A DNA stretch of 43,103 nt. Source: Caldimicrobium sp. Its GTDB lineage: Bacteria; Desulfobacterota; Thermodesulfobacteria; Thermodesulfobacteriales; Thermodesulfobacteriaceae. The notes beneath the pieces are model-generated. The model was not told where the DNA came from. It was given only the letters and a program-made list of their open reading frames with translations, and did no database searches. The position numbers and the translations under genes were made by a program. This document shows, piece after piece, positions 9,831 through 16,241 of the stretch. Location: NCBI GenBank assembly GCA_025059715.1, contig JANXCE010000017.1:1-43103 (forward strand). Direction: 5' to 3'. The number at the start of each line of letters is the position of its first letter. Position 1 is the stretch's first letter.

Positions 9831-11213
9831 TCAAGGTAGCTTGATGTTAGGATTAAGCAAGCCCTTTGGATCAAAAAGGGCCTTTATCTTTCTCATAATC
9901 TCAAGTTGAAAATCATTAAGTTCCCAAACAACAAAGCTTCTCTTGGTGAAACCCACTCCATGCTCTCCTGAGAGAGTTCCTGCTAAATCTAAAACCTTAC
10001 GCAATATAGCCTCCCTTACCTGCAAGGCTACTTTCTCATGCTCTTCATCAAAAATTAGATTTACATGAAAGTTGCCATCCCCTGCATGTCCGTAAGCTGC
10101 AATGAGCACTCCTGTTTCTTTTTCTAAATTTCTTAAAAACTTTATGAACTCCAAGCTTCCCCTTCTTGGTATTACTACATCATCGGAGATTTTTTTACTC
10201 CCCAGAGTCCTCAAAGAGGGCGAAATCACTCTTCTGATTTCCCAGAGTTTCTCAATCTCAAGCTCTTCTTCCGCTTCCTGAAAAAAAAGTTCCTTGGACC
10301 CGAGAATCTCCCTTATTTTGACTCGAACTTTCTCAACTTCCTCTTTAGTGCCATCAAACTCTAAGAAGAGTAAACCCTCAATAGAGGATGTCTTAGCGTC
10401 TAATCTTTCTTTAATGACAAGTATTGAAGTTTTATCTACAAACTCCGCACAGGCGGGGGTTATACCCTGAAGTAAGATTTCACTCCCTAACTTTAAGGCT
10501 GATAATTCTTCTGGAAAATAGATTAAAAAAAGCGCTCTTTTTTCAGGTAGAGGAAGGAGTTTTAGCTGAATCTCCAAAAAGACCCCCAGAGTTCCCTCTG
10601 AACCCACAAAGAGTGGGGTAATATTATAGGGTACAACTCCCTTTAATGTCCCTGGACCTGTTCTTAGTGTTTGCCCTCCGGGGAGCCCAACTAAGAGAGA
10701 GAGCACATAATCCTTGGTTGTGCCGTATTTTAAACCTCGAGGTCCTCCCGCACCTGTAGCTACATTGCCTCCAATGGTTGAAAAGGTATAACTTGCGGGA
10801 TCTGGAGGATAAAAGAGGTTATACTTCTTTAATTCTCTTTTAAGATCTCCATTTAAAACCCCTGGTTCTACTACCGCGGTTCTCTCCTCTGAGTTGATCT
10901 CTAAGATCCTATTCATACGAGTAAAGGACACTACAAGACCTCCTCCTATAGGAAGAGCACTACCTGTAGTTGCAGTGCCACTGCCCCGTGGAGTTATAGG
11001 AAAATTATACTTGTCTGCAAGCCTTAGAATCTCTAATACTTCCTCTTTGGTTTCTGGAAGAGCAACCGCGGGAGGGAAAAAACACAAAGAGGAGGCATCA
11101 AAGGCATAGGGATGAATTTCTTCCTCTGTTACTAAAAACCTATCCCCTAAGAGATCTTGAAGGTTTTTGAGGGCTTCCTCACTTATAGTTGACGAAAAGG
11201 TCCTGGGGCTCAT
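9831..11213 (-). CDS. FAD-linked oxidase, GlcD / D-lactate dehydrogenase type
   Basis: This flavoprotein belongs to the PCMH/vanillyl-alcohol-oxidase superfamily and probably oxidises a 2-hydroxy acid such as glycolate or D-lactate. The FAD-binding PP-loop PRGSGTATTG is at 75-84, with GGNVATGAGGPRGLKYG-type flavin contacts near 148-164. The C-terminal domain has GHAGDGNFHVN and SGEHGVGFTKR, conserved in GlcD and D-LDH, with metal-binding histidines. The 460-residue length fits a single-subunit GlcD. No glcE or glcF (Fe-S partner) lies beside it, so its electron acceptor is unknown. The start lies 35 bases inside the dnaA 3' end. The stop is only 4 bases from the convergent deaminase stop, leaving no room for a terminator. 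Confidence 0.88.
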   Translation of the reverse strand: MSPRTFSSTISEEALKNLQDLLGDRFLVTEEEIHPYAFDASSLCFFPPAVALPETKEEVLEILRLADKYNFPITPRGSGTATTGSALPIGGGLVVSFTRMNRILEINSEERTAVVEPGVLNGDLKRELKKYNLFYPPDPASYTFSTIGGNVATGAGGPRGLKYGTTKDYVLSLLVGLPGGQTLRTGPGTLKGVVPYNITPLFVGSEGTLGVFLEIQLKLLPLPEKRALFLIYFPEELSALKLGSEILLQGITPACAEFVDKTSILVIKERLDAKTSSIEGLLFLEFDGTKEEVEKVRVKIREILGSKELFFQEAEEELEIEKLWEIRRVISPSLRTLGSKKISDDVVIPRRGSLEFIKFLRNLEKETGVLIAAYGHAGDGNFHVNLIFDEEHEKVALQVREAILRKVLDLAGTLSGEHGVGFTKRSFVVWELNDFQLEIMRKIKALFDPKGLLNPNIKLP

Positions 11214-12555
11214 CTTCTATATTTGAAGAGTTATTAGTTTGAGAATTGAACTCTGAGGATAAATCTCTTATCAGGAGTTCTAACTGAAACTTAAAGGCTC
11301 TGTCCTCCTCAAGTTTCCTTTCAAAACTCTTCAGGTGGTGGATTAGGGTGGAATGCTCCTTTTTAAGGAGTTGGGCAATGTCCTTTAGGCTTTTATGTGC
11401 CAGTTTTCGAAGGAGATAAATAAGGGTTTTTCGGGCTAAAGAGACATTCTTCTTTCTCGAGGAAGAGAGGATTTCCTCTTTAGTGAGACGAAAGAATCTA
11501 CATATTCCTTCCAAAATAAGCTCCAATTCAAAATTTTCTTCCCTTTGAAGGGTAATTTCCGCGAGCATCTCCTTTGCAAGTTGTAGAGAAATAGGCTCCT
11601 TTAAAAGGGTAGCTCGGGCTATTAGGCCTAAGACTATACTCTCCAATTGTCTAATATCACCTCTGATATTCTTAGCAATATAGTCTACCACTTCATAGGG
11701 GAATTTATAACCCTCCTTTTTAGCTTTAAAGCGAATGATTTTTTTTCGCGTCTCTAAGTCTGGTTGATTTAAACGCACAATAAGACTAGCGTTAAGTCTT
11801 GATCTTAGGGAACTATCTAAAGATTCCAGCTCCTGAGGTAGTTTTAAAGAGGTAAAGATCACTGTTTTACCCTGATCCAAAAGATAATCAAGGAGCAGGG
11901 CCAGCTCGGTTTGCGTAAACTCCTTTCCTGAAAGAAAGTGAAGCCCATCCAGTATTAAAAAATCACAATTATTTTGAATGTTCTTCTTGAAACTTTCTAT
12001 TTGTCCGGACTTGAGATACTTTATGAGATAATAGAGAAAGTCTTGAGCAGTAAAATAAAATACCCTCTCAAAGCCCCTTTGTAAAAGCTGGTTCCCCACT
12101 GCCTGAGTAAGATGGGTCTTTCCTAATCCATAACTTCCCCATAGATAAATAAAATAACCCGTAGGTGTTTCCTCTACCAAACGGGTGCATACCTTATAGG
12201 CTAATTCATTGCATTTTCCGATTACGAAATTTTCAAAGGTATACTTTTTTGAAAACTTTCTTCCCATCAAATCTACGGGATTATAGGGCAAGAGCATCTG
12301 TTCCGCCTTAGGCTTATCTCTTAAAGTGAATTCATAAGCTCTCAGTCCCTCCTCACTAATTAGCCTTTGCAAAAGCTGATGATAGTTCTCCTTTAACCAA
12401 GTTCTGGTAAATTCGTTAGGGACTTCAAGCCACAAAACATCACCACGAACTTCTCCTCTTAGCTCTGAGAACCAAACCTGATATATATTTTGAGGTAAAA
12501 GCTCCTTTAGTTTTTGCTTTAAATAATTCCAAGAGCAAATATCGCTTTTTGACAT
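11179..12555 (-). CDS. dnaA: Chromosomal replication initiator DnaA, divergent
   Basis: DnaA is an AAA+ initiator that binds and melts oriC. All four domains can be traced in 458 residues: an N-terminal DnaB-interaction domain (about 1-85, VPNEFTRTWLKENY), a short linker, the AAA+ core beginning KYTFENFVIGKCNELA, and a C-terminal DNA-binding domain whose signature reads KKEHSTLIHHLK. Walker A is GSYGLGKTH. Walker B reads LILDGLHFL, where most DnaA have two adjacent acids (LIDDIQFL), so the second acid is Gly. The box VII SR (LRSRL) and sensor 2 Arg (GDIRQLE) are kept. The signature H-[ST]-T is kept, but the following Ala/Ser is His. The ATG has a purine-rich ribosome binding site. It may be the only DnaA or a paralogue; no dnaN lies next to it. 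Confidence 0.9.
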   Translation of the reverse strand: MSKSDICSWNYLKQKLKELLPQNIYQVWFSELRGEVRGDVLWLEVPNEFTRTWLKENYHQLLQRLISEEGLRAYEFTLRDKPKAEQMLLPYNPVDLMGRKFSKKYTFENFVIGKCNELAYKVCTRLVEETPTGYFIYLWGSYGLGKTHLTQAVGNQLLQRGFERVFYFTAQDFLYYLIKYLKSGQIESFKKNIQNNCDFLILDGLHFLSGKEFTQTELALLLDYLLDQGKTVIFTSLKLPQELESLDSSLRSRLNASLIVRLNQPDLETRKKIIRFKAKKEGYKFPYEVVDYIAKNIRGDIRQLESIVLGLIARATLLKEPISLQLAKEMLAEITLQREENFELELILEGICRFFRLTKEEILSSSRKKNVSLARKTLIYLLRKLAHKSLKDIAQLLKKEHSTLIHHLKSFERKLEEDRAFKFQLELLIRDLSSEFNSQTNNSSNIEDEPQDLFVNYK

Positions 12556-12865: not shown

Positions 12866-13834
12866 TTATCTTTTCCAGCAGGCTATTTTGTGAAGAGGCT
12901 CTCTATCTTGGAGAAGTGGATGTTTTTTAAAACAAATCTCTGCTACTTCTGGACAGCGAGGACTAAAGTCGCAACCCACTGGTCTATTTAAAGGACTTGC
13001 TGGTTCTCCTGAAAGGTCAGAGATATCTGGTGGAGTATCCGCGAAAGGATCTGGGTAAGATTTAAAGAGAAGAAGAGTGTAGGGATGATGCCTTACTTGA
13101 TTAAACAAAGTTCGGGGAAAGGACTCTACAATCCTACCCAAATACATCACAGTTATCCTATCGGCGATTTCTAAAGCCACTGGTAAAGAGTGAGTAATTA
13201 GTAAGTAACTTAAATTGTACTGACTCTGTAACTCCTTAAGAAGTTGAAGAATTTGGCTTTGAATGGTCATATCTAAGGCAGAAGTGGGTTCATCAAGAAC
13301 AATAAGTGAAGGTTTTGTAAGGAGGGCTCTTGCAAGAGCAACTCGTTGTCTTTGACCACCACTTAACTGATGGGGATAGCGGTCTAAATAATCTTCAGAG
13401 AGGCCCACTCTATGAAGATATTCCCTAATTATCTCTGCTACCTTCTTCTTATGGTGAGGATAATTTAATAGATAAGGCTCCTGAAGAATATCTCTGATTT
13501 TAAGACGTGGGTTCAAAGAGGCATAACTATCTTGAAATACCGCCTGGATTTTTGGTCTAAGGCTTTTATAGTTTTCCTTACTTAAGTTTCTTACAGATAA
13601 CCCAAACCAACGAACATCACCCCAATCAGGTTTTTCAAGATCTAAGATTATTCTACCAAGAGTGCTCTTTCCACAGCCACTCTCTCCTAAAATTCCGTGA
13701 ATCTCACCCTCAAGGATTGCCAAGGATACCTTTAGAAGGGCATAAAAGGGGACTTTACGAAATAACCCCACCCGCACTTTATATTGTTTCGTTACCTCTT
13801 TAACTTCTACAATTGGATAGGCCGTTGAATTCAT
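12866..13834 (-). CDS. oppF: Oligopeptide/dipeptide ABC transporter ATPase, OppF/DppF type
   Basis: This is a cytoplasmic ATPase of a peptide or nickel importer. Walker A GESGCGKS is at 50-57, signature LSGGQRQR at 157-164, Walker B IVLDEPTSALD near 178-188, and an H-loop follows. The C-terminal oligo_HPY region has four cysteines (C-x5-C-x6-C-x17-C) of the kind reported to bind a 4Fe-4S cluster in some DppD proteins. I prefer the ATG at 13834, with AGGTG upstream, over a TTG at 13873; the overlap with oppD is then 35 bases. No permease gene lies nearby, so this pair must work with membrane subunits encoded elsewhere. Confidence 0.92.
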   Translation of the reverse strand: MNSTAYPIVEVKEVTKQYKVRVGLFRKVPFYALLKVSLAILEGEIHGILGESGCGKSTLGRIILDLEKPDWGDVRWFGLSVRNLSKENYKSLRPKIQAVFQDSYASLNPRLKIRDILQEPYLLNYPHHKKKVAEIIREYLHRVGLSEDYLDRYPHQLSGGQRQRVALARALLTKPSLIVLDEPTSALDMTIQSQILQLLKELQSQYNLSYLLITHSLPVALEIADRITVMYLGRIVESFPRTLFNQVRHHPYTLLLFKSYPDPFADTPPDISDLSGEPASPLNRPVGCDFSPRCPEVAEICFKKHPLLQDREPLHKIACWKR

Positions 13835-14762
13835 AGAGAAAACACCTGACCTTGTGTCCAGGTTCAACCTCAAAAAAGGGTGGGCTTTGCACTAATCCCC
13901 TTTCACAGGAGTGAACACATCTTGACCAAAAATCACACCCCCTAATAGGGTCCGCTACATCCACTCTTCTAGAAAAGGGAAGAGCTTTCTCTTTTCCAGG
14001 ATAAGAGGAAAATAAGAGTTGAGTATAGGGATGACAGGGTTTATTAAAAAGCTTCTCTGTAGAGGCAACTTCAACAATTTGTCCTTGATAGTAAACTAAT
14101 ATCCTTTTAGCTAACCAGCGCAAAACTCCTAAATCATGGGTAATAAAGAGAATGCTTAGTCCCAACTTGGAATTTAATTCTTTGAGAAGTTCTATGATTT
14201 GCATCTGAAGAGTCAGATCAAGGGCAGTGGTTGGTTCATCCGCAATAAGCAACTTAGGAGCACAAAGTATACTCATAGCAATCATAATCCGCTGTCTGAG
14301 GCCTCCGGATAACTCATGGGGATAACTCTTTAGCCTAAATTCTGGGTCGGAAATGCCTACCTCTCTTAATGTTTTTAAAATCAGAGCCTTTGCAGTATCT
14401 CCTTTGATTAAAAGGTGATGGTGAAGAACTTCTTTTAATTGTTCCTCAACTTTTAAAACGGGGTTTAAGCTGCTCAGAGGATCTTGAAAAATAATGGAAA
14501 TATCCTTTCCTCTTAAGTGTTGAAGTTCCTCCGAAGAAAGTTTTACCAAATCCTTTCCATCAAATAGGATCTCTCCTGAGAGAATCTTTAAATTTGCAGG
14601 CAATAATCTCAAAAGAGAAAGAGCAGTTAGAGATTTACCACTTCCACTTTCTCCTAAGATTCCTAAGATTTCACCTTGCTCAAGAAAAAAAGATAAGTTT
14701 TTTAGAATAACTCTACCATCCGCCGAGCCTACCGAGAGATTTTTGACTTCAAGTATTGGCAT
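13800..14762 (-). CDS. oppD: Oligopeptide/dipeptide ABC transporter ATPase, OppD/DppD type
   Basis: This is the partner ATPase of the oppF product. The 320 residues have Walker A GESGSGKS at 37-44, signature LSGGLRQR at 151-158 and Walker B LLIADEPTTALD near 171-182. The C-terminus carries a four-cysteine motif (C-x5-C-x3-C-x20-C) like that in OppF. The ATG at 14760-14762 begins MPILEVKNLS, normal for OppD. It overlaps oppF and lies about 50 bases downstream of slyD, in a minus-strand run that starts at argF. A peptide-binding protein is encoded 20 kb away at 34744-36423, but nothing links it directly to these ATPases. Confidence 0.93.
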   Translation of the reverse strand: MPILEVKNLSVGSADGRVILKNLSFFLEQGEILGILGESGSGKSLTALSLLRLLPANLKILSGEILFDGKDLVKLSSEELQHLRGKDISIIFQDPLSSLNPVLKVEEQLKEVLHHHLLIKGDTAKALILKTLREVGISDPEFRLKSYPHELSGGLRQRIMIAMSILCAPKLLIADEPTTALDLTLQMQIIELLKELNSKLGLSILFITHDLGVLRWLAKRILVYYQGQIVEVASTEKLFNKPCHPYTQLLFSSYPGKEKALPFSRRVDVADPIRGCDFWSRCVHSCERGLVQSPPFFEVEPGHKVRCFLYEFNGLSNCRS

Positions 14763-14812: not shown

Positions 14813-15293
14813 TCAGCCACCTCCACAGGCTCTAAGCTCAGCAGCCATAATTTCATAGGCTGTGGCAGGTCTTGCTTCAAGTATTTCGATTTTCATAAGA
14901 ATCTCTTTTCCAGCGGCTGGATGATTAAAATCCGCTTTAACTTTGCCATTTTTTACTTCAAGAATTTTAAAAAAAGGTTTTGGTTCCGTAGGGAGATACC
15001 TCTTCATACCACTCTCCAGGAATAACTTTCTCGGGGTGTTTAAGAGCTTCTAAGTCCAATTCTTTAACCAAATAAGAAAGATGGGGACCATAGGCGGATT
15101 GAGGTGGAATAGTGACTTCAATTGTGTCGCCAGCACTTCTTCCCTCTATAGCCCTTTCAAGAATGTTGGGGATTGGCTCCCTCCCCATAATGAAGGCCAC
15201 CTCAATTGGCTTAGAAAACCAAGAGGGGGTCTTTTCACCCACAATTTCCATACAATATCTGAATCTCACATAATAGTCTCTTTGCACATTCAT
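14813..15293 (-). CDS. slyD: FKBP-type peptidyl-prolyl isomerase SlyD, split by a +1 frameshift
   Basis: SlyD proteins are prolyl isomerase chaperones with an FKBP domain interrupted by an IF chaperone flap. The first frame (15293 to 14967, 108 codons) has the FKBP core with EVAFIMGREPIPNILERAIEG and TIPPQSAYGPH, enters the second half of the fold at VIPGEWYEEVSPYGTKTFF, then meets TAA. The second frame, one base on, continues directly with KILEVKNGKVKADFNHPAAGK and finishes the fold, ending in ACGGG. The join lies in seven T's (minus strand, 14969-14975) directly before the stop. Both halves keep family residues, so this is a recent lesion, an assembly error in a homopolymer, or real recoding. 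The ATG has an AGGAGG site upstream. Confidence 0.85.
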
Positions 15294-15329: not shown

Positions 15330-16241
15330 TTATCTTTGTTCTAACAAAAAATCAAGCAAAGCCATGTGAAGCCACATCTTATTTTCCGCTTGATCCCAGA
15401 CCACAGCTTGAGGGCCTTCTAAGACTTCTTCACTTATCTCTTCTCCTCGATGAGCGGGCAAACAGTGAAGCACAATGGCGGAAGGATGGGCATAGCTTAA
15501 CAATTTAGTATCTAAGGTATATCCCTTAAAGGCCCTTCTTCTCTTTTCCGTCTCTAATTCTTGTCCCATACTTATCCATACATCAGTATTAATAACCTGA
15601 GCTTCCTTTAAAGCTGTTTGGGGATCATGATTGATCTCTATTTGGGCACCAAATCTCTCTTTGGCTTCCTTAATTAGGTCTTTAGAAGGTTCAAAACCCT
15701 TTGGACAGCAGATAGTAAGAGGAAAACCAAGGATGGCGGAAGCTTCTATCCAAGATTGCGCTACATTATTGCCATCCCCTATCCATACAATCTTATCTCT
15801 ATACAGATCTTTCCCTTTCTCAATAATAGTCATTATATCTGAAAGAACCTGACAGGGATGAAATTGATTAGATAGGCCATTAATTACAGGTATAGTAGAG
15901 AATTTGGCAAACTCTTCAATGGTCTCCTGTGCATAGGTTCTTAGCACCACTACATTCACATAACGGGAAAGGACTCTGGCTGTATCCTTAAGTGGTTCTC
16001 CTCTGGCAAGTTGAAGGTCCTCTTTGGATAGAAAGAGACTATTGCCTCCTAATCTTAACATGGCAGTTTCAAAGGAAATCCTTGTCCTTGTTGAGGCCTT
16101 TTCAAAGATTAGGGCTAAAATCTTGCCCTCCCATTTGTTGAGATATTTACGGGCTCTCTTCCATTCAAGAGCCCGAGAGAGAATGACCTCAATTTCACCT
16201 TTGCTCAAATCCCAAATACGAATAAAATGCCTTACGCTCAC
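15330..16241 (-). CDS. argF: Ornithine carbamoyltransferase
   Basis: This enzyme makes citrulline from ornithine and carbamoyl phosphate in arginine synthesis. The 303-residue protein has the carbamoyl-phosphate motif STRTR at 50-54, HPCQ at 128-131, an ornithine-binding region with a D-x-W-x-SMG block (220-226) and HCLPAHRG at 259-266, which holds the catalytic cysteine C260. SMG and HCLP distinguish it from aspartate carbamoyltransferase. The GTG start has AGAGGG seven bases upstream. It is the first gene of a minus-strand run (slyD starts about 37 bases downstream). No other arg gene is in the window. Confidence 0.96.
   Translation of the reverse strand: MSVRHFIRIWDLSKGEIEVILSRALEWKRARKYLNKWEGKILALIFEKASTRTRISFETAMLRLGGNSLFLSKEDLQLARGEPLKDTARVLSRYVNVVVLRTYAQETIEEFAKFSTIPVINGLSNQFHPCQVLSDIMTIIEKGKDLYRDKIVWIGDGNNVAQSWIEASAILGFPLTICCPKGFEPSKDLIKEAKERFGAQIEINHDPQTALKEAQVINTDVWISMGQELETEKRRRAFKGYTLDTKLLSYAHPSAIVLHCLPAHRGEEISEEVLEGPQAVVWDQAENKMWLHMALLDFLLEQR

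Follow-up and report, generated by a model that had tools for sequence, protein, structure and literature searches.

A probable one-base gain at a T run interrupts an otherwise conserved SlyD-type FKBP gene in a Caldimicrobium draft genome

The window analysed here is one whole contig (JANXCE010000017.1, 43,103 bp) of the 80-contig, 1.84 Mb draft of a Caldimicrobium sp. (GCA_025059715.1). Along its minus strand lie an ornithine carbamoyltransferase gene (argF, 15330..16241), a slyD-family gene interrupted by a frame break, a gene for an OppD-like ABC transporter ATPase (13800..14762), one for a second ABC ATPase, called OppF-like from its position and its similarity to the first (12866..13873), and dnaA (11179..12555). 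The neighbours argF and oppD flank slyD in relatives too, and the order argF-slyD-oppD-oppF is common to four genus-mates (G001, G003, G005 and G006), with dnaA coming next wherever the fetched stretch reaches it; in G002, the contig begins inside slyD. Since the gene order is kept in genus-mates, the window slyD is orthologous to theirs, and a stray paralog standing in its place is ruled out. The gap between slyD and oppD varies in length, being about 1 kb in G005 (L063:4477-5514) and 2.7 kb in G004 (L064:4477-7187), while the two genes are close in the other genus-mates.

The first slyD frame, as read from the ORFs, runs from 15293 to 14967 on the minus strand, preceded by a start signal (AAAGGAGG), and has 108 codons followed by TAA, ending ACC-TTT-TTT-TAA. 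The context of the break on this strand is AAA ACC TTT TTT TAA AAT, which comprises a run of seven T's (14975..14969), the stop (14969..14967), whose first T is shared with the run, and an AAAA stretch (14968..14965). One base further on, a continuation in the +1 frame (14968..14813) provides 51 codons and a TGA and holds ADFNHPAAGK, the most conserved stretch of the family, so that a single +1 step at the break gives a protein of 159 residues. The preliminary description of this DNA had reported the T7 run directly at the stop, the short frame of 108 residues and the recovery of the C-terminal half of the FKBP by one +1 step, and the frameshift is confirmed in all these respects. When the first half was searched alone, it matched relatives with a best E=1.7e-56, and the second half alone located the same site in those genomes (best E=3.9e-29). 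Because each half by itself matches the same gene of the same relatives, their joining by a +1 step is not a matter of chance.

The assignment of the gene to the slyD type, also made in the preliminary description, agrees with our results. The first half is an FKBP_C by Pfam (PF00254, E 5.3e-5, above the cut-off), and a profile made from four relatives matches the SlyD of Thermus thermophilus (3cgm/4odm) over 149 positions with E 6.7e-21. The predicted structure of the joined 159-residue product has a mean pLDDT of 90, and its best fold match is with Thermus SlyD chains (E 3.1e-15, about 151 columns). The TM-scores by query length are moderate, ranging from 0.56 to 0.66 for the eleven best fold matches, which the presence of two mobile domains could explain. 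Judged by sequence and modelled fold, the gene read across the break would encode a SlyD-type FKBP, a putative peptidyl-prolyl isomerase, with an inserted (IF) domain.

The position of the break within this fold bears on what the first frame alone could produce. The inserted domain of SlyD is described as lying between loops 65-70 and 118-125 (PMC5034536), and in the alignment, residue 108 of the window product corresponds approximately to residue 103 of Thermus SlyD, inside the inserted domain, so the short form stops before the second half of the FKBP domain. In the model of the joined product, the elements at or after residue 108 are three strands (E105-114, E117-121 and E131-142) and one helix (H145-156); the TAA stop would cost the rest of strand 105-114, the two following strands and this last helix. 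Most ribosomes would be expected to stop at the TAA, releasing a 108-residue protein without the last FKBP strands, which is probably non-functional.

From 30 family genomes searched, a slyD match was found in 28, the window genome counted, and none in G024 and G029; the gene is therefore present in 27 of the 29 others, in all of them without an internal stop. Two of these 27 (G002 and G016) have contig ends that place their start inside slyD, yet the join is covered in both. The frame continues unbroken across the join in 29/29 relatives read. Neither the break nor a T7-TAA arrangement, for which the related slyD genes were inspected, was found in any of these 29 relatives at the join, nor in the 27 other genomes of the family in which the gene is present. 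On these sequence comparisons, the break is private to the window genome. Our search of viral contigs found no slyD copy, and a contig scan, from which near records may be omitted, gave seven relatives, none of them identical to the window. Among the papers listed by a literature search, judged by title and abstract, none describes a slyD frameshift site of this kind.

At the join, the family reads Thr-Phe-Phe-Lys, and the window gene has one base more. Genus-mates spell these codons ACC TTT TTT AAA (G002), ACT TTT TTT AAR (G001, G005), ACT TTT TTC AAG (G003), ACA TTC TTT AAA (G006) and ACC TTT TTC AAG (G004). The extra base is somewhere in CC-T7, with the frame changing either in the T run or within the CC that precedes it, since a T gained after ACC and a C gained before the T7 fit the relatives equally well. 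In 3 of the 29 relatives (G001, G005 and, at a greater distance, G026), a run of seven T's is found in frame at this place, and so its length alone is harmless. Among the 29 relatives, 26 have Lys as the codon next after Phe-Phe. Because TTT TTT AAR plus one base always becomes TTT TTT TAA, the presence of a stop right at the slip site is not a separate coincidence.

The second half of slyD shows no sign of degeneration and is constrained to the same degree as in relatives. Its amino-acid identity with six genus-mates is 76-88%, exceeding that of the first half in 6/6 pairs and lying near the range observed among the genus-mates themselves (78-98%). In an alignment of 13 sequences, one of them the window product, 18 of the columns past residue 108 do not vary. 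As dS values are near saturation, the comparisons are confined to amino-acid and nonsynonymous differences. The statement in the preliminary description that neither half has decayed is thus borne out, and it implies that the break is recent, or unreal, or that the gene is still read through.

We surveyed 443 kb of the window genome (the window and 20 further stretches) for frameshifts against the ORFs in stretches of four genus-mates. The survey comprised 394 ORFs of at least 90 aa, 220 of them covered by relatives, while frameshifts in the 174 uncovered ones would go unseen. Of the four frame-change candidates obtained, a clean single-site break was left at slyD alone, where 4/4 reference genomes support it. 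The candidate in L074 is an overlap of two neighbouring genes, presumably a nuoI/nuoJ-like pair. In L069, the candidate near 18.5 kb is a coiled-coil ORF that has decayed and contains several stops; for the one near 19 kb, the reference ORF of G003 is itself broken. The coiled-coil-repeat ORF (L069:18164-18639, in contig C1 of the window genome) is decayed relative to G001, with one reference and 40-51% identity. A gene of G003 (L147:3-760, contig C17), perhaps for a transposase, is frameshifted in that genome and has two similar copies in the window genome (L069 and L070), which are about 90% identical to L147.

In the covered coding sequence, we counted 168 A/T runs of at least 7 bases (122 of seven, 42 of eight and 4 of nine or more), and none of them other than the slyD run has a clean break. 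The draft is therefore not prone to homopolymer errors, and general poor assembly is unsupported as the cause, with slyD as the sole clean frameshift among the 220 covered ORFs. The count limits the error rate to no more than a few per cent for each run, with which one error is compatible.

We suggest that the break is probably a real, recent and lineage-private gain of one base at the T run of an otherwise conserved SlyD-type FKBP gene. The break is in none of the relatives examined and the remainder of the gene is intact, which are the features of a recent private indel. The extra base would have arisen by DNA polymerase slippage. A small amount of full-length SlyD may still be produced, either by RNA polymerase slippage on the T7 or by a ribosomal +1 slip at UUU_UAA, and such low-level synthesis is possible by analogy with other bacteria. 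For the E. coli RNA polymerase, at least seven T's are reported to be needed for productive slippage, with about 10% slippage by deletion on T8 (PMC6260861), and bacterial UUU_Y is described as prone to +1 slips (PMC5009743). Selection against A/T runs is reported to be evident mostly at nine (PMC1088944). The loss of slyD may also be buffered by a second FKBP gene (L189, G000:C11:11468-11692; 68.8 bits), which has an open frame of 178 aa, a Pfam FKBP_C match better than that of the window slyD and a counterpart in 7/7 genus genomes. It is very unlikely, in our view, that slippage at UUUUUUU before UAA, whether by polymerase deletion, by a ribosomal +1 step or by the two together, is efficient enough to supply useful amounts of full-length SlyD, which would make the gene a "pseudo-pseudogene" that one lineage tolerates or even retains.

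The main alternative to a recent lesion is a sequencing or assembly error, in which the organism has an intact slyD and the draft, when it was made, acquired one base too many in the homopolymer. A single-base error of this kind gives an identical sequence, and the undecayed second half is explained equally well by an error or by a rescued gene, although it also fits a lesion if this is very recent. The homopolymer site, the state of the draft (80 contigs) and the integrity of the gene in every relative having slyD favour an error, as does a large GeneTack survey, where homology-confirmed singleton frameshifts are expected to be errors and not true indels (PMC3711429). On the other hand, only 1 of the 168 A/T runs coincides with a clean break. 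The preliminary description had named a homopolymer error as the simplest alternative; it is a tenable but rather doubtful explanation, made less likely by the lack of any other clean break at those runs, and in our judgement the lesion is about twice as probable. A phase-variable (contingency) switch, in which reversible changes of the T tract would turn slyD on and off, is highly improbable. The tract lies inside the gene and some relatives have T6 or T7 at the site, as such a switch would have it, but T7 is common in coding sequence (94 exact sense-strand runs in the 394 ORFs of the window genome), and in the relatives, C's often break up the tract, which is in frame in every case. SlyD, moreover, is not known to have a surface or variable function.

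Programmed recoding would be a used +1 step, made by the ribosome at UUU_UAA or by RNA polymerase deletion on the T7, that deliberately yields proteins of 108 and 159 residues. With a stop in the A site, the UUU codon is able to re-pair after a +1 slip; a small minority of RF2 genes are reported to have UUU_U instead of CUU_U (PMC5009743), and seven T's are the minimum given for slippage of the E. coli RNA polymerase (PMC6260861). We nevertheless regard this reading as very unlikely. A conserved recoding is rejected because the frame is unbroken in all readable relatives. The arrangement at the break follows automatically from the Phe-Phe-Lys codons, so that its prfB-like look is a by-product and no evidence of a prfB-like design, and in the 394 ORFs sampled from the window genome, TTT-TTT-AA stands in frame at 25 sites that are read straight through. 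There is no Shine-Dalgarno-like AGGGGG or AGGAGG element at the slyD slip site, the nearest short match, a GAGG, being some 26 bases ahead of the slip codon, and the stop is TAA and not TGA. The same genome has a true site in its prfB (L210, G000:C25:16782-17831, minus strand), which reads AAGGGGGTGT CTT TGA CCC, with the RF2 frame resuming one base on; here AGGGGG, three bases and CTT TGA C follow each other, in line with the published motif, where an AGGGGG-like element stands three bases ahead of CTTT with its premature TGA (PMC12421855). Across the genus (L205-L211), prfB has the canonical +1 site, composed of AGGGGG or AGGAGG, TGT and CTT TGA, and reads CTTTGAC in 6 of the 7 genomes and CTTTGAA in G004. 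The prfB logic invoked in the preliminary description does not stand, then, beyond the presence of a stop after the slip codon. Of the three origins it had offered, a lesion is the likelier and an error the less likely, while recoding is unsupported and not conserved, the frame being unbroken in 29/29 relatives read and in 27/27 other family genomes that carry the gene, an outcome that the description had named as one part of its refuting condition. A split gene, finally, would require that an internal ATG at 15007 start a 64-residue second piece (15007..14813, out of frame with the first) complementing the product of the first frame. This frame is open and a GGAG stands six bases before the ATG, which make it a candidate start for a C-terminal fragment. 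However, the same off-frame ATG also occurs in at least 4 of 12 relatives (with the first ATG per relative scored), where it opens only 14-22 codons; it is there because of the conserved Gly-Glu-Trp-Tyr-Glu codons in which it lies. The fragment would, besides, begin with wrong-frame residues before Phe-Phe, and we give this explanation almost no credence.

The slyD break would then be an ordinary event, a lesion or an error, and programmed recoding is not supported. It matters mostly for annotation, where a frameshift label (lesion or error) is appropriate for the gene and a recoding label is not. Should reads bear out the break, slyD would become a modest natural experiment on the rescue of a broken chaperone gene at a T7 run by the polymerase or the ribosome of a thermophile.

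Compared with known systems, slyD resembles the prfB +1 frameshift in having its stop directly after a codon able to re-pair one base on (TTT TAA), but it differs by the absence of a Shine-Dalgarno-like element, by TAA instead of TGA, by UUU instead of CUU and by the lack of conservation of the site. The singleton frameshift genes of the GeneTack survey (PMC3711429) are another parallel: slyD is likewise private, confirmed by homology and outside any cluster of like sites, and we found nothing to distinguish it from them. With the rescue of frames by transcriptional slippage at homopolymers (PMC6260861; PMC1088944), it shares a T run sitting at the break and a frame that would be restored by one base fewer in the transcript; the slyD T7, however, only just reaches the smallest run reported to work with the E. 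coli polymerase, and a run of 9 is indicated for most genomes. As for the protein itself, the window gene has in common with Thermus thermophilus SlyD the FKBP halves flanking an inserted domain, at about 30% identity and with its frame broken after residue 108.
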